39,261 bases of DNA from positions 1 to 39,261 of the forward strand of contig JAGORO010000007.1 of NCBI GenBank assembly GCA_018062785.1, given 5' to 3'. The position numbers and the translations under genes were made by a program. This stretch comes from Candidatus Saccharimonadota bacterium. Its GTDB lineage: Bacteria; Patescibacteriota; Saccharimonadia; Saccharimonadales; UBA4665. The stretch's first letter is position 1, and every line of letters begins with the position of its first letter. This document shows positions 1-39,096 of this stretch, piece by piece. The notes under the pieces were generated by a model, which was not told the DNA's origin, ran no database searches, and saw nothing but the letters and a program-made list of their open reading frames with translations.

Positions 1-160
1 TTGGCACTTCAAGAGGTGGGAATTGAACGCCTGTTGCCGGAGGCTACAGGGTGAGACGTGCCTGTGGCACGTCGCAAGGGAGCCCACTCTTGCGAACTTG
101 TTTGCAAAGATGTGGCGACGGGCTCGCCGAAGGTGAGTCAATTCCCCTTGGGATCACCAT
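1..160 (+). ncRNA. Structured CCA-ended element, copy A (5' end cut by the window)
   Basis: Five helices can be drawn by eye. P1 pairs 18-26 with 138-146 (9 perfect pairs). P2 is 30-34/46-50 with an inner GCC/GGC. P3 is 55-62/66-73 with loop TGT. P4 lies within 83-114 and is less regular. P5 is 123-128/132-137 with loop GAA. After P1 the sequence reads like the 3' half of a tRNA: a T-loop from position 55 (TCAATTC), a T-stem strand, a 7-nt acceptor strand, A73 and CCA at 157-159. A terminator follows. The matching tRNA 5' half is not visible. The helix order and P5 sequence recur at 38947-39089, and the architecture recurs at 11095-11226. It could be a T-loop intron or an end remnant of an integrative element. 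Function unknown. Confidence 0.5.
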
Positions 161-247: not shown

Positions 248-1687
248 ATGGCAGATTCTAAGAAAAGGAAAAACGTATCACTTTCTGAGTATAAGCGTAC
301 GAAAATTATTGCTACGGTTGGGCCCTCTACCAACAGCTACAAGCAAATCAAGGCCCTGATAGACGCTGGTGCAAATGGTATCAGGCTTAATTTTAGTCAT
401 GGCACACACGAAGAGCGCGTGCAGCAAATTGCGTGGATCCGTAAGGCGAGCCATGAGACAGGAAAGCCAATCGCAATCATACAAGATCTTCAAGGTCCCA
501 AGATACGGCTCGGAGACTTCGACGGGGTCGTGCCGGTGCAGAAGGGTCAATCATTGAGGCTCCAGTTCGATGCGGATTACGCGGCTACTGGGATATTGCC
601 GACACAGTATGATCTTGCGAAAAAGGTAAAACGAGGAGAGAGGCTATTGCTGGCTGACGGCCGTCTCCATACGCATATTACGAGCGTCAAAGACGGGACT
701 GTACACGTCCGTACCGAGAATGATGGTGTTCTGCTTCAGAGAAAAGGCATAAACCTTCCCGATACAGACTTTGAAGGCGATGTTATTACTGCAAAAGATA
801 GAGCAGATTTGGCGTTTGGCAGCGAACAAGATATTGATTACGTTGCGATGAGCTTTATTCAAACTCCTAAGGATATTCGGGCCATAAAAAGGATTATTCA
901 CAACCTCGGAAGCCCCCGCGCTGTCATTGCTAAGATAGAGACCAAGATGGCGGTAGAGAATCTAGAGGAGATCATCCAAGAAGCAGACGCTATCATGGTG
1001 GCTAGGGGTGACCTTGCGGTGGAGACATTGCCAGAGAGTGTGCCAATCGTACAGCGAAAGATTATTGGTTTGGGGCTTAAGCACCGCAAGCCAACGGTAG
1101 TTGCGACGCAGATGCTTGCGAGTATGACTGAAGCGCCCGAACCAACGCGCGCAGAAGTCTCGGACATCGCCACTGCAGTATTGGTTGGGGCGGATTGCGT
1201 TATGCTCAGCGACGAAACCGCAAGCGGTAGGTATCCCGTAGAGGCGGTCGAGGTAATGAAGCGAGTCATTATGTACACGCAATCACACCCGCCGCTTCAT
1301 ACCGACTTTTCTCCTGTTTTTGAGCCTGCAAATACAAAAGAGCTCGCAATAAGTCGGGGAGTTATTAGCTTGGCAAACAGTATCCAAGCGAAAGCGATCG
1401 TTGCCGAAACAAAAACTGGCGCAACAGCTGTTCAAATTGCCTGCGAACGGCCAGGTATACCAGTGATTGCAGTTACGGATGTCGAGCGCACCGCGAACCA
1501 GTTGGCAATCGTCTTTGACATCAAATCGTACGTACGTCCTGCTGGTCGCGAAGCAGCAACTAAAATGACCGATTTTTTGCAGAAAAACAAAGTTTTCAAA
1601 AAAGGCGATATTATCGTAACTGCCAGTGGCCAATATCCTGGTGTTGTCGGCACCACCGATACGATAAAAGTGCGCCAGTTACTGTAG
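248..1687 (+). CDS. pyk: Pyruvate kinase
   Basis: Catalyses phosphoenolpyruvate + ADP to pyruvate + ATP, the last ATP-yielding step of glycolysis, in the cytoplasm. At 479 aa it has normal length. The barrel opens with the typical KIIATVGPSTNS and RLNFSHG segments. IQDLQGPKIRLGDF leads into the B domain. The metal/substrate segment AKIETKMAVENLEEII and VARGDLAVE follow, then ATQMLASM and MLSDETASGRYPVEAVEVM. The C-terminal ~120 residues form the usual alpha/beta domain. It is first of three glycolytic genes on the same strand (pyk, pgk, tpiA). The start is supported by the -10 box 7 nt upstream. Its own promoter lies after a terminator, so it is probably not cotranscribed with the upstream structured element. 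Confidence 0.97.
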   Translation: MADSKKRKNVSLSEYKRTKIIATVGPSTNSYKQIKALIDAGANGIRLNFSHGTHEERVQQIAWIRKASHETGKPIAIIQDLQGPKIRLGDFDGVVPVQKGQSLRLQFDADYAATGILPTQYDLAKKVKRGERLLLADGRLHTHITSVKDGTVHVRTENDGVLLQRKGINLPDTDFEGDVITAKDRADLAFGSEQDIDYVAMSFIQTPKDIRAIKRIIHNLGSPRAVIAKIETKMAVENLEEIIQEADAIMVARGDLAVETLPESVPIVQRKIIGLGLKHRKPTVVATQMLASMTEAPEPTRAEVSDIATAVLVGADCVMLSDETASGRYPVEAVEVMKRVIMYTQSHPPLHTDFSPVFEPANTKELAISRGVISLANSIQAKAIVAETKTGATAVQIACERPGIPVIAVTDVERTANQLAIVFDIKSYVRPAGREAATKMTDFLQKNKVFKKGDIIVTASGQYPGVVGTTDTIKVRQLL

Positions 1688-11094: not shown

Positions 11095-11113
11095 TGGTGG
11101 AGTTGGTGGGTAC
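11095..11113 (-). repeat. Left direct repeat of the tmRNA 3' end (att-like)
   Basis: Minus-strand GTACCCACCAACTCCACCA matches 18 of 19 positions of the true tmRNA 3' end at 15079-15097 (GTACCCACCAGCTCCACCA), in the same orientation. A duplicated tRNA/tmRNA 3' end is the classic scar of site-specific integration. The pair brackets about 4.0 kb containing the serine recombinase. Confidence 0.75.
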
Positions 11114-11226
11114 GCGCCAAGCTTCGCTTGGCTACTTTAAGATGCTCGCAGTTACAAGCACAGCTTGACTGGAGCATCTCCTCGGATTGCCACAGGCAAC
11201 CCTCGCCCTCTCGGGGCAGTACCCAC
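11106..11226 (-). ncRNA. Structured element, copy C, at the left end of the integrative element
   Basis: Five helices are visible on paper. P1 is 11106-11113/11219-11226 (8 perfect pairs). P5 is 11116-11122/11126-11132 (7 bp, GAA triloop on the minus strand). P4 is 11141-11147/11172-11178. P3 is 11185-11191/11195-11201 (TGT triloop on the minus strand, closed by GCC/GGC). P2 is 11205-11208/11214-11217. The order and loops match copies A and E while the stem sequences differ, which suggests selection on structure. P1 merges with the T-stem of the left tmRNA-end repeat. It could be an RNA or recombinase-bound DNA; transcription is unproven. Confidence 0.5.
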
Positions 11227-11240
11227 ATGTTCATAAATGG

Positions 11241-11273: not shown

Positions 11274-11405
11274 TTGGTGGAGCACCTCGAAAAAAGTTCA
11301 CCCCTCATCATCGAAGAAGTACGCCGCTGGCGTGATTTACTCTGGGACGACTACCTAGACTACAAGTACAGAGAAAAACGCACATCAGAGGTACATAACC
11401 CCTGA
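11274..11405 (+). pseudogene. Possible 43-codon gene remnant
   Basis: From TTG at 11274 the frame reads LVEHLEKSSPLIIEEVRRW and continues with a charged, amphipathic stretch ending KYREKRTSEVHNP before TGA. The composition looks like a real protein tail. There is no start codon context, and the 5' part runs into a minus-strand CCACCA end. It may be the 3' remnant of an earlier coding sequence disrupted at this junction, or chance. The following stretch 11406-11682 has a palindrome (GGGTATACCC near 11406-11415) and no gene. Confidence 0.3.
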
Positions 11406-11682
11406 GGGTATACCCCTCTATATATAGGAACTGTTAGAACGTGTATGAGGAGTGAGTAAGAACTTGTCGATGAGCACTGGCTACATCATCTATCTAACTC
11501 TATTATAGCATTTTGAGGCTTTTTCGTGTCGCACAATCTACCTTGAACGACATACCCTAACAGGGGTAGTATTGTTTATTTACCGACAGGAGGGCTTGTC
11601 AAGTGCTGGTGTTATTTTCGCCCACCCCTGTTAAAAAACATACTATACCATAATTAATTTAGCATGGGCTTTTGCTGCGGAA

Positions 11683-12519
11683 TTAGTTAATGGGTTCGCC
11701 TTTGAAGTACACCCGACCGTCTTTCTGCTTAACTTCGTCGGCACCGTCGTGATAGAACTGTATGTCACACGTTTTCTGTGCCTGACGTGCTATAGGTACA
11801 ATAGTATTCACTGTTCGGTCGGCAAGATACATTTGATATTTACCTCTCGCATTGTTCCAAGCACTACTAGTTGGCTGTCCCATGTAGTTGTATTCGTCAA
11901 AGGTTAAAATGCCACTAGCAGTTGATTCTGGCGTCTTTTCCCAATCACCACCTTTTCCATTGCTGTAACTGAGTTTGTAAATCTTGCAGCTATTTAGTAG
12001 CTCAGTAGCCTTCTCGACAGTCACTTCTGAATAATAGCTGTTAACTTTGTCTTGATGTTCTTGGGTTTTAACATTTTCCTTGTGCTGAGCCGCCAAGATA
12101 AAAGGAGATGACGCTCCCCCCAGCACTGCCATAACACTAAGTACCAAGACGGTTGTTGTTACTTTCTTAAACCCACCTGAAAAATAATTTTTGGATAATG
12201 CTCTTAGGGTAACAAAAATATTAACTAACCCTAGTAGCCCAGTAGCTAGAAGGATCGGTGCAGCCCCAATAGCTATATAAACACCAGCGAAAGGTATGAG
12301 TGTCAGTGCAAGCAACCCGCCATTGAGTATCAAAATGATTAGCGATACCACTAACCAAGTTTTGAGCAGCTTATGACCCCCATCATTAGGTAATAAAGGC
12401 TGGGAGACTATTGGTTGAAGTTGTTGCCCTGTGCTAGAACTAACAATAGCTGGCCGCTCTGAGGATTGTATATTTTGTGGCTGTTCGATTGGTTGATTTT
12501 TATTTTCTTCAGGATTCAT
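11683..12519 (-). CDS. Multi-pass membrane protein, cargo of the integrative element
   Basis: A 278-aa protein of no recognised family. A Gln/Pro/Ser-rich cytoplasmic N-terminus (about 1-45, ending PLLPNDGGHK) is followed by three or four hydrophobic helices between about 50 and 145. An exported C-terminal domain of ~130 residues contains two Cys (NSCKIYKL, KTCDIQFY) that could form a disulfide. The overall plan, and the phrase PLLP before the first helix, recall the chromosomal membrane protein at 9337-10785. It lies inside the tmRNA-bounded element on the opposite strand to the recombinase and is its only sizeable cargo. The role is unknown; surface exposure could matter for host contact or superinfection exclusion (speculative). 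Confidence 0.75.
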   Translation of the reverse strand: MNPEENKNQPIEQPQNIQSSERPAIVSSSTGQQLQPIVSQPLLPNDGGHKLLKTWLVVSLIILILNGGLLALTLIPFAGVYIAIGAAPILLATGLLGLVNIFVTLRALSKNYFSGGFKKVTTTVLVLSVMAVLGGASSPFILAAQHKENVKTQEHQDKVNSYYSEVTVEKATELLNSCKIYKLSYSNGKGGDWEKTPESTASGILTFDEYNYMGQPTSSAWNNARGKYQMYLADRTVNTIVPIARQAQKTCDIQFYHDGADEVKQKDGRVYFKGEPIN

Positions 12520-12755
12520 ATTTGAATTTTAACATAACCATATGCCACCTTAACTGTAAAACCCTATCCTAGACGCTCTCCGTGCGTTCCACGGGGTATT
12601 TCTATTAGATAGCTCGTTCACTTTTCTTCCCAATAAAAGCAGTGCAACGTCGCATATAATTTTTCACCAGATGTTTGCGTCTGCAACGCTTTTTTCCGCC
12701 CTACATTTTCCAGACTTATCTGACACCAAAACTTCCAAAAATACAGTAAACGTAA

Positions 12756-12995
12756 CTAGTTAATCTGTGGGATTGTCAGAAAACTAAACACCGCCTTGTT
12801 CTGGTTGCTCTTAGCGGTTGCCATTCTTTCTGCGAATATTGTGTTACGTAAGTGGCGATAGTAGGTATCACGACTGATCCCTACGTACCTACAGGCTTCA
12901 GTGATAGTCGTATTGTGTTGGATTAAATCTACAAGCACCTCAATGGTACGATAATTAACCTTAGCTGGTCTGCCTATGACTGTTTTGTACACCAT
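12756..12995 (-). CDS. Small helix-turn-helix DNA-binding protein
   Basis: A 79-aa protein with a clear helix-turn-helix: TIEVLVDLIQHNTTITEACRY leads into VGISRDTYYRHLRN, resembling the HTH of resolvases and phage terminase small subunits. The ATG has AAAAGGAG 6 nt upstream, a strong ribosome-binding site unlike the leaderless core genes. It is divergent from the recombinase operon, and its start lies about 65 nt from the perfect promoter at 13059-13087, so it could repress that promoter or act as the recombination directionality factor. Both roles are inference. The upstream gap 12520-12755 shows only a short CCGTG/CACGG hairpin. Confidence 0.75.
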   Translation of the reverse strand: MVYKTVIGRPAKVNYRTIEVLVDLIQHNTTITEACRYVGISRDTYYRHLRNTIFAERMATAKSNQNKAVFSFLTIPQIN

Positions 12996-13058
12996 AATTA
13001 CTCCTTTTGTTTTTCGGTGTTATCTCTATTCTTATTATCTCAAATACACCATTTCAAC

Positions 13059-13087
13059 TTGACAAATCTCAAGCGTAAGCGTATAAT
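13059..13087 (+). promoter_or_regulatory. Perfect-consensus sigma70 promoter of the recombinase operon
   Basis: TTGACA (13059-13064), a 17-nt spacer and TATAAT (13082-13087) match the consensus exactly. No core gene in the window has such a -35 box. It reads toward the recombinase genes, with a leader of about 120 nt. Confidence 0.85.
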
Positions 13088-13176
13088 TAGAAGTACGATA
13101 GTGAGTGTCTTGGTGTCATAGAACACATATACATACACTTTCTTGAGGTCTACCCATCCCTTAGTCGATGTTAGCC

Positions 13177-13193
13177 CTCGATAATTTATCGAG
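13177..13193. promoter_or_regulatory. Palindrome in the recombinase operon leader
   Basis: CTCGATAA-T-TTATCGAG, 8-bp perfect arms, lies 90 nt after the promoter and 20 nt before the first ORF. It is a candidate operator for the divergent HTH protein or an RNA hairpin affecting expression. There is no experimental basis. Confidence 0.45.
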
Positions 13194-13212
13194 ACAAGCA
13201 TTGGGCTATTAG

Positions 13213-13419
13213 ATGGATGATCCATCAAAAGTTCAACCAGTATCAAACGAAGAAAGCCCACAGCGAGAGCCAGCGGGTGATTTTGTCGTTCCTACAGAAA
13301 TAACATCTGAAACTCCTAAGCAAAAGGAAACTTATGACAAAGCAGACCTGGACGAATATTGTTTATGGTTGTATAGCATATATGAAAGATTAGAGATAGA
13401 ATCAGATAAACGCACATAG
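13213..13419 (+). CDS. Small acidic protein in the recombinase operon
   Basis: A 68-aa protein of no recognised family. The first 40 residues are Pro/Glu/Thr-rich and probably disordered. The C-terminal third (DLDEYCLWLYSIYERLEIE) can form an amphipathic helix. It follows the perfect promoter and precedes the 34-aa ORF and the recombinase on the same strand, so it is likely cotranscribed with them. No strong ribosome-binding site is visible before the ATG. It might be an accessory factor of integration or excision, but nothing in the sequence shows that. Confidence 0.55.
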   Translation: MDDPSKVQPVSNEESPQREPAGDFVVPTEITSETPKQKETYDKADLDEYCLWLYSIYERLEIESDKRT

Positions 13420-13440
13420 CGTAAACAGGGAGAGCTCGGC

Positions 13441-13545
13441 ATGATACTTTTCAAGATACTTCAAGAATACAAATGGCAGTTAAATTACGACTTTGCCGAG
13501 CCGTTCCCTTTGACTGCCGTTCGTGTATTTGAGGTAGCAATATGA
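13441..13545 (+). CDS. 34-aa leader ORF coupled to the recombinase
   Basis: A short ORF (MILFKILQEYKW... ending RVFEVAI) begins 9 nt after a GGGAG ribosome-binding site. Its TGA overlaps the recombinase ATG (ATGA). The recombinase itself lacks an independent ribosome-binding site, so its translation probably depends on ribosomes finishing this ORF. No homology is recognised. It is too short for most gene callers. Confidence 0.6.
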   Translation: MILFKILQEYKWQLNYDFAEPFPLTAVRVFEVAI

Positions 13546-15176
13546 AAGATAAAGCTATCGCACTGAGGCGTATATCTGACCGTAAACAAGATGATGGGCA
13601 TAGCCTTATCGCACAAAAAGAAAGCACCGAAAGAACGGCTGAACAGCTTGGGCTATTACTGGTCAAGACATGGGACGAGATACGTTCCAGTAAAAGGGGC
13701 AAAAACTTTAAACGTCGTGACATGGAGCAAATGCTCAAATTTTGCAAACAAAACCGTGATGTTAAGTATCTTCTAATAGATTTCGTTAATCGCCTCATGA
13801 GAGAGGTCGAAATACTGATTTATTACAAGGTACTGTTCAATCAGATGGGGGTCGAACTATATTTTTGCGACCCAACTCAGCAGCACTTAAACGGAGGAGA
13901 CCAATATTCCAAACTAATGCTTCTGCTGGAAGCATACAAAGCAGAAACCGATAATGATTCAAGAGCCGAGACTACTATTGCTCGCATGAAAGCTCGCTAC
14001 AATGCTGGCTACTACATCTCCCACCCGCATCAGGGTTATATGAAGTCAGATATAGCGGGACTCCATGTTAAAGACCCTGAGCGTTTTGGGCTCTTGCAAA
14101 AGAGTGGCTACTTAATAATCTACGAACAATATACGCCCGAGCAAGCCGTGAGGTGGCTCAGTGACCACGGCTACCGCACTCGTGGTGGCAAGAAAATGGA
14201 TGTCAATCACTATATAGAGCTTATCCAAGACCGCTACTTTTGCGGGATTATTGACATCAAGAAAGAGGGTCCGCTTAGTGATATAAAGAACGTAAAGGGA
14301 CTACATGAACCCATGTTCAGCGTCCATGAACACGAAAAGCTTGTTGCAATCATCACCAAACGTAACCCTCGCATAAGGCAAAAGCATAACCCCGAATACC
14401 CTGTGGCCAATCTGATACGACACTTGGAATGTAAGCACGAAGAACTACATAGTAAATTCTCTGGATTCGCAAAGGATCGTGGTATCAGGAATGGCAAGAA
14501 ACGCCCTAAGTGTCCTACGTATCGTTGCCGTACATGTCGTCGTGAGTTCAGCCGCCAACGCCTCCATGATGGCATAGAGACACATATGAATAGTCTGGAA
14601 TTCCTACCTGACAGTGCCACATTCAAACGTGCACTGATAAAGGTATGGCGTAACCAGCGTGGCTCTGTTATCCAACGCATAAGCATTCTGGAAGCGAATA
14701 AGGCACGTATTGAGACTGACATTATCAAAACAGCAGCAGACTACGCAAAAGAACCAGAGGGAGCGGCCAAGAATGCTTTACGCCTACTGCTCGAAGATTA
14801 TGAAGCAAAGTTGGAAAACATTAAGAATGACATCACCACCACTCAGAACGTCGATATGGAGAGTGAAGATTTTGTTAAATTTGCCATGAACTTCACTGAG
14901 GAACTCAAGGAGAAATGGTGGTCTATCTCTTTTGATGAACGTCAGGGGGGTGAACAAATCTTATTCAACGGCGAATTTTATGTCGATAATTCTGCAAAAG
15001 TTCACACCCCCAAATTAAGCACTATTTACACCTTAGGGACAAATAAAAACGACCCGAATGGGGTCGATTTTAACAAAATGGTGGAGCTGGTGGGTACTGC
15101 CCCCACGTCCATCGGGTTTAAACATTCGACTCTACAGGCTTATTTAGTTTTAGAATCTTTGAATACAATTATTTAA
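13542..15176 (+). CDS. Large serine recombinase (integrase)
   Basis: Site-specific DNA integrase/excisionase. The N-terminal resolvase domain carries ALRRISDRKQ, with the likely nucleophile Ser12, then SLIAQ, and NRLMRE in place of the usual dRlsRd motif. A recombinase domain follows (about 160-260, with TPEQAVRWLSDHGYRTRGG). A zinc ribbon has Cys and His in HLECKHEELH and Cys in CPTYRCRTCRREF. A coiled coil (about 375-430) precedes a C-terminal lobe (FNGEFYVDNSAKVHTPKLSTIY). The reading frame runs through the tmRNA terminator and 98 nt antisense into tmRNA, so the last ~45 residues (from about NKNDPNG) are encoded by target-derived DNA and are probably not part of the ancestral enzyme. It is expressed from the 13059 promoter and coupled to the 34-aa ORF. 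Confidence 0.93.
   Translation: MKDKAIALRRISDRKQDDGHSLIAQKESTERTAEQLGLLLVKTWDEIRSSKRGKNFKRRDMEQMLKFCKQNRDVKYLLIDFVNRLMREVEILIYYKVLFNQMGVELYFCDPTQQHLNGGDQYSKLMLLLEAYKAETDNDSRAETTIARMKARYNAGYYISHPHQGYMKSDIAGLHVKDPERFGLLQKSGYLIIYEQYTPEQAVRWLSDHGYRTRGGKKMDVNHYIELIQDRYFCGIIDIKKEGPLSDIKNVKGLHEPMFSVHEHEKLVAIITKRNPRIRQKHNPEYPVANLIRHLECKHEELHSKFSGFAKDRGIRNGKKRPKCPTYRCRTCRREFSRQRLHDGIETHMNSLEFLPDSATFKRALIKVWRNQRGSVIQRISILEANKARIETDIIKTAADYAKEPEGAAKNALRLLLEDYEAKLENIKNDITTTQNVDMESEDFVKFAMNFTEELKEKWWSISFDERQGGEQILFNGEFYVDNSAKVHTPKLSTIYTLGTNKNDPNGVDFNKMVELVGTAPTSIGFKHSTLQAYLVLESLNTII
15043..15071 (-). terminator. tmRNA terminator, inside the recombinase ORF
   Basis: The minus strand shows a CGACCC/GGGTCG hairpin (15050-15055/15061-15066) followed by TTTTTATTT. 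It lies 8 nt past the tmRNA CCA end. It was probably brought in by the element, because a second terminator follows the left repeat. Confidence 0.8.
15079..15097 (-). repeat. Right direct repeat (att-like), the tmRNA 3' end
   Basis: GTACCCACCAGCTCCACCA on the minus strand forms the T-stem 3' strand, acceptor strand and CCA of tmRNA, and repeats at 11095-11113 with one difference. It marks the right end of the ~4-kb element. Confidence 0.75.
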
Positions 15177-15471
15177 ACTAACAAACATTTCATATTCGCA
15201 ATCTATAGTCTTAGCATGCGACTAAGATAGTTTCGCATGAGCGTCCGAAAATATAAAACGCTACCTAAAATATTCGGCATCTTCTAGGGCATTGCTTAAT
15301 TTAAATTAAGCGTATACGGCAACTGGCTTAGCAAAAGCGAGTTTAACGCTTTCGAAAGCAGCAGCTACCTTATCAGATAATTTTGCAATTACTGAGTTTT
15401 GCCTATAACGCTGACAAGCGACCTGCAATCAGAATGTAAATGTACCAATGTCGAGCTTAAAATTCAGCCCC
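15079..15471 (-). ncRNA. ssrA: tmRNA (transfer-messenger RNA)
   Basis: Rescues stalled ribosomes and tags the nascent chain for degradation. The 5' GGGGCTG (from 15471) pairs with CAGCTCC before A and an encoded CCA (15079). A P2 helix pairs ACATTC...TGCAGG with CCTGTA...GAATGT. The likely resume codon is GCA (15384-15386), giving a 26-residue tag that begins AKLSDKVAAAF, ends KPVAVYA and stops at TAA (15306-15308) inside a perfect 18-nt palindrome. Length is 393 nt. Oddity: the T-arm GTGGG/CCCAC encloses GGCAGTA instead of a TTCRANY-type loop. The 3' end is overlapped antisense by the recombinase ORF and duplicated at 11095. A TATAAT box lies at 15509-15514. Confidence 0.92.
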
Positions 15472-15835: not shown

Positions 15836-16246
15836 TTACTTATGTAACTTTGGGTCAAATACGGCTAAGAACACCTCCATATTAGGGAAAATATTTTCTT
15901 TCCTTGACTCTTCGGGACTGAAAAATTTTAGTTCTACGCACTCGTCCGACGGAATAAAGTCCAGATTTCTGAGCTTGATCTCGTAGATAGCGTTAGCCAC
16001 AAAGCCTCCATGTCCAGCCTTAGGGGCGGTAATAAAATATTTCGGGGTGTCCGATACCTCAATCACCTCTAGCCCAGTCTCTTCTTTGATTTCTCATCTG
16101 AGGCAGACAATAGGGTTTTCACCGTGATCTAGTCCACCACCAAGGAACTCCCATTTACCGTTGTCTTCCTTTGCTAGCAAAAACCTGCCGATGCTGTCCA
16201 CTACGGTCCCCTTGATGCTCACTCGGTAATGGTTTTGTTCGTTCAT
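15836..16246 (-). pseudogene. Nudix hydrolase, broken by a nonsense codon
   Basis: The two halves are in one frame. The first is MNEQNHYRVSIKGTVVDSIGRFLLAKEDNGKWEFLGGGLDHGENPIVCLR. An in-frame TGA (16094-16096) follows, and then the second half, starting EIKEETGLEVIEVS. Joined, they give a Nudix box G-x5-E-x7-R-E-U-x-EE-x-G-U in which the stop occupies the Arg position (CGA to TGA is one transition). Neither half alone holds the whole catalytic box, so the enzyme should be dead unless the codon is read through. The start at 16246 has AAGGGG and a TATACT box upstream. An intact protein would be ~136 aa, a usual Nudix size hydrolysing nucleoside-diphosphate derivatives. Confidence 0.8.
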
Positions 16247-38946: not shown

Positions 38947-39089
38947 TGGCTGGGGGTGAGGGATTCGACTCACCTTCGGCGAGCCCGCAACTTCTGCCTT
39001 GAAAGCGTAGCTTTCAGGTGAAGGTTGCCTTGCGATATGCCACCGGCATATCTCACCCCGATCACGAACATAATCGTGCGCTGAACCCC
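38947..39089 (-). ncRNA. Structured CCA-ended element, copy E
   Basis: Same helix order as copies A and C. P1 is 39083-39089/38960-38966. P2 is CACGA/TCGTG (39063-39067/39074-39078). P3 is 39034-39041/39045-39052 (GGT triloop on the minus strand). P4 is 38987-38991/39024-39028 with an inner TGAAAGC/GCTTTCA. P5 is 38969-38974/38978-38983 with a GAA triloop. P5 and its flank GGGCTCGCCGAAGGTGAGTC are identical to copy A. The 3' side reads as a tRNA 3' half from T55: T-loop TCGAATC, acceptor strand, G73 and CCA (38947-38949). No terminator follows; an ORF starts 11 nt later. Unknown class. Confidence 0.5.
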
Positions 39090-39096
39090 GTATCTC

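Follow-up and report, generated by a model that had tools for sequence, protein, structure and literature searches.

Rickettsia palindromic elements are mobile, palindromic sequences of about 100-150 nt with RNA-like folds, which insert mainly into the protein genes of a reduced genome. Likened by description only, they resemble the element presented here in size, mobility and RNA-like fold and differ from it by their protein-gene targets. The REPIN/BIME sequences with their RAYT partners (PMC3116915) share with it a short, extragenic, structured and multicopy nature, spread within the genome, compensatory changes, tandem clusters and a correlation between element presence and Y1 transposase genes. 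However, REPINs spread over the extragenic space, whereas the present element is confined to tRNA/tmRNA loops in one orientation, has three different hairpins around a conserved junction, and is absent from the ends of most Y1 genes examined. The introns of archaeal (Thermoproteales) tRNAs (PMC4033280) are similar in that related inserts occupy several loops of different tRNAs, up to three per tRNA and in the sense orientation, but here it is a partial tRNA copy beside an intact gene that is interrupted, and only 3 of 194 copies yield a tRNA once the element is deleted. In tDNA islands (Islander, PMC4383910) the insertion is likewise marked by a restored tRNA or tmRNA and a displaced fragment; the present element differs in its size (about 200 bp), the lack of integrase and cargo, the two mirror arrangements, the use of several loops and the conserved RNA-like fold. 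Finally, inverted triplication by template switching (ODIRA, PMC10766183) yields a copy, an inverted copy and a copy, the same order as a tRNA 3' part, an inverted piece and a second 3' part in one of the forms described below (form 1); this is an analogy only, as here the pieces are tens of bases long, the host is bacterial and the element lies in the third copy. Literature searches found such an element nowhere described, and the preliminary description, which knew of no matching family, agrees with Rfam, where no family matched the three copies in question even at E<=10.

The window, i.e. the whole 39,261-nt stretch of DNA analyzed, is an entire contig (C4) of an 862 kb genome in 22 contigs. 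At either end the window runs into inverted repeats associated with the element, and another contig of this genome, C7, ends exactly at the CCA of a tRNA-Gln (G000:C7:38266). The window contains three copies of the element, one (copy A) on the plus strand, spanning 18-146 from P1 to P1, and two (11106-11226 and 38960-39089) on the minus strand. Their parts are as follows; the E-values, which are rough, come from a covariance model from which the window was held out.

18..26, plus strand: P1 5' strand GGGAATTGA of copy A, an inverted T-arm copy, pairing with 138-146
30..50, plus strand: P2 hairpin CCTGTTGCC..GGCTACAGG of copy A, its 3' strand overlapping the first core bases
48..139, plus strand: core (P3-P4-P5) of the tRNA-Glu copy (A), 95.1 bits, E=2e-19
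138..159, plus strand: orphan tRNA-Glu-type 3' half TCAATTCCCCTTGGGATCACCA, 21/22 identical to the tRNA-Glu end of a relative (G662, locus L144)
11095..11113, minus strand: orphan tmRNA 3' fragment GTACCCACCAACTCCACCA, matching the tmRNA end at 15079 in 18/19 positions and containing the P1 3' strand (11106-11113)
11116..11132, minus strand: P5 hairpin GCCAAGC-GAA-GCTTGGC (sequence inspection, fold)
11119..11209, minus strand: core (P3-P4-P5) of the tmRNA copy, 37.7 bits, E=8e-7, RNA fold z -7.5
11205..11217, minus strand: P2 hairpin GCCCcgagaGGGC (sequence inspection, fold)
11219..11226, minus strand: P1 5' strand GTGGGTAC, an inverted copy of the tmRNA T-arm, pairing with 11106-11113
11275..15087, no strand assigned: integrative element of about 3.8 kb, separate from the structured element, inserted in the 3' end of the tmRNA and bounded by the core repeat GCTCCACCA (11275-11283, 15079-15087)
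13542-15176, plus strand: large serine recombinase (544 aa) of the integrative element
15079..15471, minus strand: intact tmRNA, partner of the 11106 copy (Rfam RF00023, 64.3 bits)
38947..38968, minus strand: orphan tRNA-Gln 3' half TCGAATCCCTCACCCCCAGCCA, 21/22 identical to the tRNA-Gln(CTG) of the genome (G000:C17:68834-68855), its first two bases common with the last pairs of the core
38967..39059, minus strand: core (P3-P4-P5) of the tRNA-Gln copy, 108.9 bits, E=1.8e-22
39063..39078, minus strand: P2 hairpin CACGA..TCGTG of the tRNA-Gln copy (sequence inspection, fold)
39083..39089, minus strand: P1 5' strand GGGGTTC of the tRNA-Gln copy (sequence inspection, fold)

The preliminary description had claimed three copies of one architecture recurring at tRNA/tmRNA 3' ends; inspection, folding and the covariance model identify all three with P1-P5 as drawn, and each ends in an orphan tRNA or tmRNA 3' fragment. 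On its own strand every copy reads P1 5' strand, P2 hairpin, GGTGAG, P3, GCAAGG, P4, CG(GG), P5 and the 3' fragment to CCA, where P3 has a 3-nt loop closed by GCC/GGC, P4 is long and bulged, and P5 has a GAA loop. The P3 stem sequences quoted earlier are present as well, with the labels C and E swapped relative to the coordinates. Of the five helices, P3-P4-P5 form the conserved core; the 5' strands of P1 and P2 lie outside it and represent an inverted copy of the 3' region of the neighboring tRNA. In the tmRNA copy, for instance, the sequence GTGGGTACTGCCCC at the P1 5' strand is, read in reverse complement, exactly the T-arm of the tmRNA, GGGGCAGTACCCAC. Compared with full genes, the CCA ends are identical in 21/22 positions (the tRNA-Gln copy, C, and copy A against the tRNA-Glu of a relative) or 18/19 (the 11106 copy against the tmRNA of the window), and an exact-pattern search revealed no intact tRNA-Glu partner for copy A in its own assembly. 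RNA folding gave z-scores of -4.7 (18-148), -7.5 (11098-11228) and -4.6 (38958-39090), with 0/200 shuffles as stable, and folding as single-stranded DNA gave -4.4, -6.2 and -3.2 for the same intervals; taken together, the two kinds of fold surpass nearly all shuffles. For copy A, the lowest-energy RNA fold pairs P2-P4 differently, and the helices described here are those of the DNA fold and the covariance model.

The core comprises 93 nt, its three conserved hairpins arranged about a junction (GGTGAG / GCAAGG / CGGG) that is conserved too. In the first alignment, made of 23 copies from other genomes only (window held out) and with the core structure drawn by hand, 94.8% of the cells are paired and double changes occur at 25 of the 32 pairs, compared to 30-45% and 5-11 pairs in controls with the partners slid by 1-3 columns. 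RNAalifold, to which the structure was not supplied, found the same three helices. A covariance model and a genome search had been named earlier as a check; the model built from these 23 copies recovers all three window copies (108.9, 95.1 and 37.7 bits) and many more elsewhere: seven copies in the same genome and 88 in the fetched loci. Two near-identical copies of that genome (L108:1004-1096 and L109:1052-1144, in contigs C1 and C10) have no recognizable intact tRNA nearby. Among the 88 copies 95.5% of the pair cells are paired, in an alignment that leans to the structure, and double-sided changes at 30 of the 32 pairs uphold the original suggestion of a selected structure; as far as aligned sequences can tell, they support the action of purifying selection on the structure of the element. 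G-U intermediates are frequent in P3 and P5, unlike their A-C complement, which is rare, hence the folding strand would be the tRNA-sense one. The 93-nt model offers a concrete search tool for a new RNA or single-stranded DNA family.

In the 194 distinct copies collected, the element interrupts a partial tRNA or tmRNA copy, an intact tRNA adjoins most copies, and the orientation is nearly always that of the tRNA sense strand: a tRNA on the same strand is present within 200 bp of 139 copies, and one on the opposite strand within that distance of 2 (p=7e-39). The insertion points are the T-loop, the anticodon loop (Pro, Gln), the D loop and the D/anticodon junction, with tRNA frequencies biased by the way in which copies were gathered, namely by similarity search, in some cases begun from the tRNA-Gln copy. 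Two arrangements recur. In form 1 an intact tRNA is followed by a gap of mostly 60-94 nt, the element, the orphan 3' half of the same tRNA and a terminator, and the 5' half is absent altogether; in form 2 the tRNA 5' part is followed by the element, a gap of mostly 22-73 nt and the intact tRNA. The form 1 gap contains a T-run (terminator) in 66/74 copies and an inverted copy of the 3' region of its own tRNA in 72/74; the latter supplies the P1 and P2 strands, and in 68/74 cases the orphan half of the same copy is the better pairing partner for P1. Orphan 3' halves of form 1 are mostly 19-22/22 identical to the neighboring working tRNA. The form 2 gap exhibits a TATAAT-like (-10-like) box in 87% of copies, compared to 46% for shuffles, and alterations are frequent in orphan D-arms and in the D-loops of orphan 5' halves. 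The unit is about 200 bp long and cargo-free in nearly all copies examined. A single orphan tRNA may be hit repeatedly: three copies interrupt an orphan tRNA-Glu (L202), one each in the D, anticodon and T region, and two each occur in a further four orphans (L151, L168, L217, L160), while tandem amplification of units was found in L124, L125 and L141. A near-complete tRNA-Gln orphan interrupted by the element (L039:5700-6040, G038:C95) has the anticodon CTA, not CTG, and another orphan tRNA-Gln, directly upstream of the element at 1010-1102 (minus strand) in L121 (G388), has a different short hairpin in its D loop.

The element is present in 112 of 393 sampled Saccharimonadales genomes, patchily and with up to at least 10 copies in a genome; these genomes are mostly metagenome assemblies, in which the element is often found at contig ends. 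In a phylum-wide sample of 380 genomes all carriers but one belong to Saccharimonadales, the exception being a weak match at a contig end, and among the matches listed the relatives carrying it are titled almost only Candidatus Saccharibacteria/Saccharimonadia. The phages, plasmids and viral contigs searched contain no element, which rules out a carrier of this kind among those sequence sets. In the genomes searched the element is thus nearly confined to the small, parasitic Saccharibacteria (TM7). Over a quarter of the genomes sampled in this order of ultra-small episymbionts, some of them human oral species, carry this strongly conserved, previously undescribed structure. It may disrupt assembly and is a likely reason for contig breaks in Saccharimonadales genomes; it is also a source of half-tRNA genes able to mislead tRNA annotation.

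Mobility is indicated by the relationships among copies. The nearest relative of a copy resides in the same genome for 22 of 87 copies, against 4.3 expected (maximum 15 in 2000 permutations), and copies from one genome are alike even where they differ in tRNA or in form, while nearest relatives are not enriched for a common tRNA type (p=0.18; 87 copies). One pair of genomes provides an empty site: G356 has tRNA-Ala, Val and Ile, where G388 has tRNA-Ala, an orphan Val 5' part, the element, an intact tRNA-Val and tRNA-Ile. The ancestral acceptor stem is on the orphan and the intact tRNA-Val of G388 has another one, therefore more than insertion occurred there. An empty-site comparison at the pyruvate kinase locus found no synteny, and no new insertion was seen between near-identical strains.

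We therefore regard this sequence as probably a structured, miniature, non-autonomous mobile element, which spreads by copying from one tRNA gene to another and duplicates part of the tRNA as it does so. According to the proposed mechanism, it would copy itself into the loop of a tRNA gene, and the insertion event, or later selection, would leave one complete transcription unit next to a half gene with the element in it. By analogy with inverted triplications (PMC10766183), the inverted tRNA pieces closing P1 and P2 look as if produced by template switching (fold-back), and some enzyme would act on the folded sense strand, be it RNA or single-stranded DNA. It is conceivable, if rather doubtful, that the element moves as RNA, being inserted into tRNA loops by cutting and religation or by reverse splicing, and that the chimera is copied back into DNA beside the gene. 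This RNA-level reading stays alive because the orientation is strict at loops of unrelated sequence; if true, it would explain the strict sense orientation, the varied loop positions, the multiple inserts per tRNA and the truncated halves. The element would tie together tRNA genes, palindrome-driven rearrangement and miniature mobile elements, and tRNA loops may serve such elements as safe harbors.

Of the two readings offered originally, a new class of self-splicing or enzyme-spliced introns in tRNA loops is hardly credible. The T, anticodon and D loop positions and the sense orientation are intron-like, and the tRNAs of Thermoproteales hold up to three introns that moved between tRNAs (PMC4033280). 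However, deletion of the element restores a tRNA recognized by ARAGORN in only 3/194 copies, compared to 61/61 in a control where it had been inserted in silico into intact tRNAs and then removed, hence an intron within a functional tRNA is most unlikely. Moreover, a complete tRNA adjoins most copies, form 1 lacks the 5' half, orphan D-arms are often altered, loops other than the T-loop are used and no known Rfam intron family matches the three window copies at E<=10. The second reading, end structures of serine recombinases, or more generally ends of the attR type from serine or tyrosine integrases that target tRNAs, with displaced island fragments as in tDNA islands (Islander, PMC4383910), is very improbable too. 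It agrees with the displaced 3' fragment and restored gene, which are the classic island signature, with the near-identity of the orphan halves to their neighbors, as expected of displaced target-gene fragments, and with the serine recombinase adjoining the tmRNA in the window; the 11106 copy is 3.9 kb from the intact tmRNA because the integrative element with this recombinase lies between them. On the other hand, the units are small and without cargo in nearly all copies examined, the two arrangements restore opposite halves, several different loops are used, most copies have no recombinase nearby, and the window island has a core of its own, GCTCCACCA. The large serine recombinases of PF07508, with seven matches in the genome of the window, occur in 24/30 element-rich and 21/30 element-free genomes (p=0.55), in a comparison that, like the other co-occurrence comparisons below, ignores phylogeny. 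In two genomes (G446 and G622) the element follows an otherwise undisturbed tmRNA by about 50-70 nt with no recombinase insertion, therefore the window island is best explained by a separate insertion at a later time, and most likely the recombinase entered a tmRNA locus already carrying the element. The three tmRNA copies, spanning three genera and two families, have very different yet paired P4 stems and tmRNA-specific features in common; they look like an old inherited lineage with its structure kept, or may reflect independent insertion of one subfamily. Judged from these comparisons, the element looks mobile and yet, at the tmRNA site, long retained.

This retention across two families, with stems changed but paired, fits also a non-coding RNA serving the host, in which the core and the half tRNA are transcribed as a decoy, buffer or regulator of the neighboring tRNA or tmRNA and are spread by gene duplication. 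The purifying selection on structure, the strict sense orientation (139:2) and the orphan 3' halves still 19-22/22 identical to the working tRNA in most form 1 copies point the same way. We nevertheless find a host function unlikely, in view of the patchy presence (112/393 genomes), the within-genome clustering across unrelated tRNAs, the several copies inside one dead tRNA and the location of copies outside the transcription unit of the intact tRNA, on either side of it, because of which cis control is not obvious. No mobilizing enzyme was found among the families compared (reverse transcriptases, large serine recombinases, Y1 transposases). Reverse transcriptase was rejected as a partner, since it shows no association (7/30 element-rich, 8/30 element-free genomes). 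A REPIN-like element, mobilized in the form of single-stranded DNA by a REP-associated tyrosine (Y1/HUH) transposase, would account for the presence of Y1_Tnp genes in 22/30 element-rich versus 4/30 element-free genomes (or 2/30 if only genes of RAYT size are counted; p=1e-7, optimistic as the genomes are related), and REPINs too show structured hairpins with compensatory changes (PMC3116915). However, 8/30 element-rich genomes have no Y1 gene, most sampled Y1 genes are flanked by their own palindromes (about 22 nt, of the AGGxCxGxCCT type) unlike the core, and the element lies within about 0.5 kb of only 2-3 of 20 Y1 genes. The strict tRNA-sense orientation is also unexpected for REPINs, and instead of a wide extragenic distribution 139 of the 141 tRNA-near copies are on the same strand, with peaked distances, so that this reading appears fairly improbable.

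A RAYT-like Y1 transposase gene is found beside an apparent recA in several genomes of the family (L291 in G000:C14, L293, L302, L306, L307). In the window, a NUDIX hydrolase frame (15837-16246, minus strand) carries a single in-frame TGA, within the Nudix box (LR*EIKEETGLE), but is otherwise open, and is likely a recent pseudogene.
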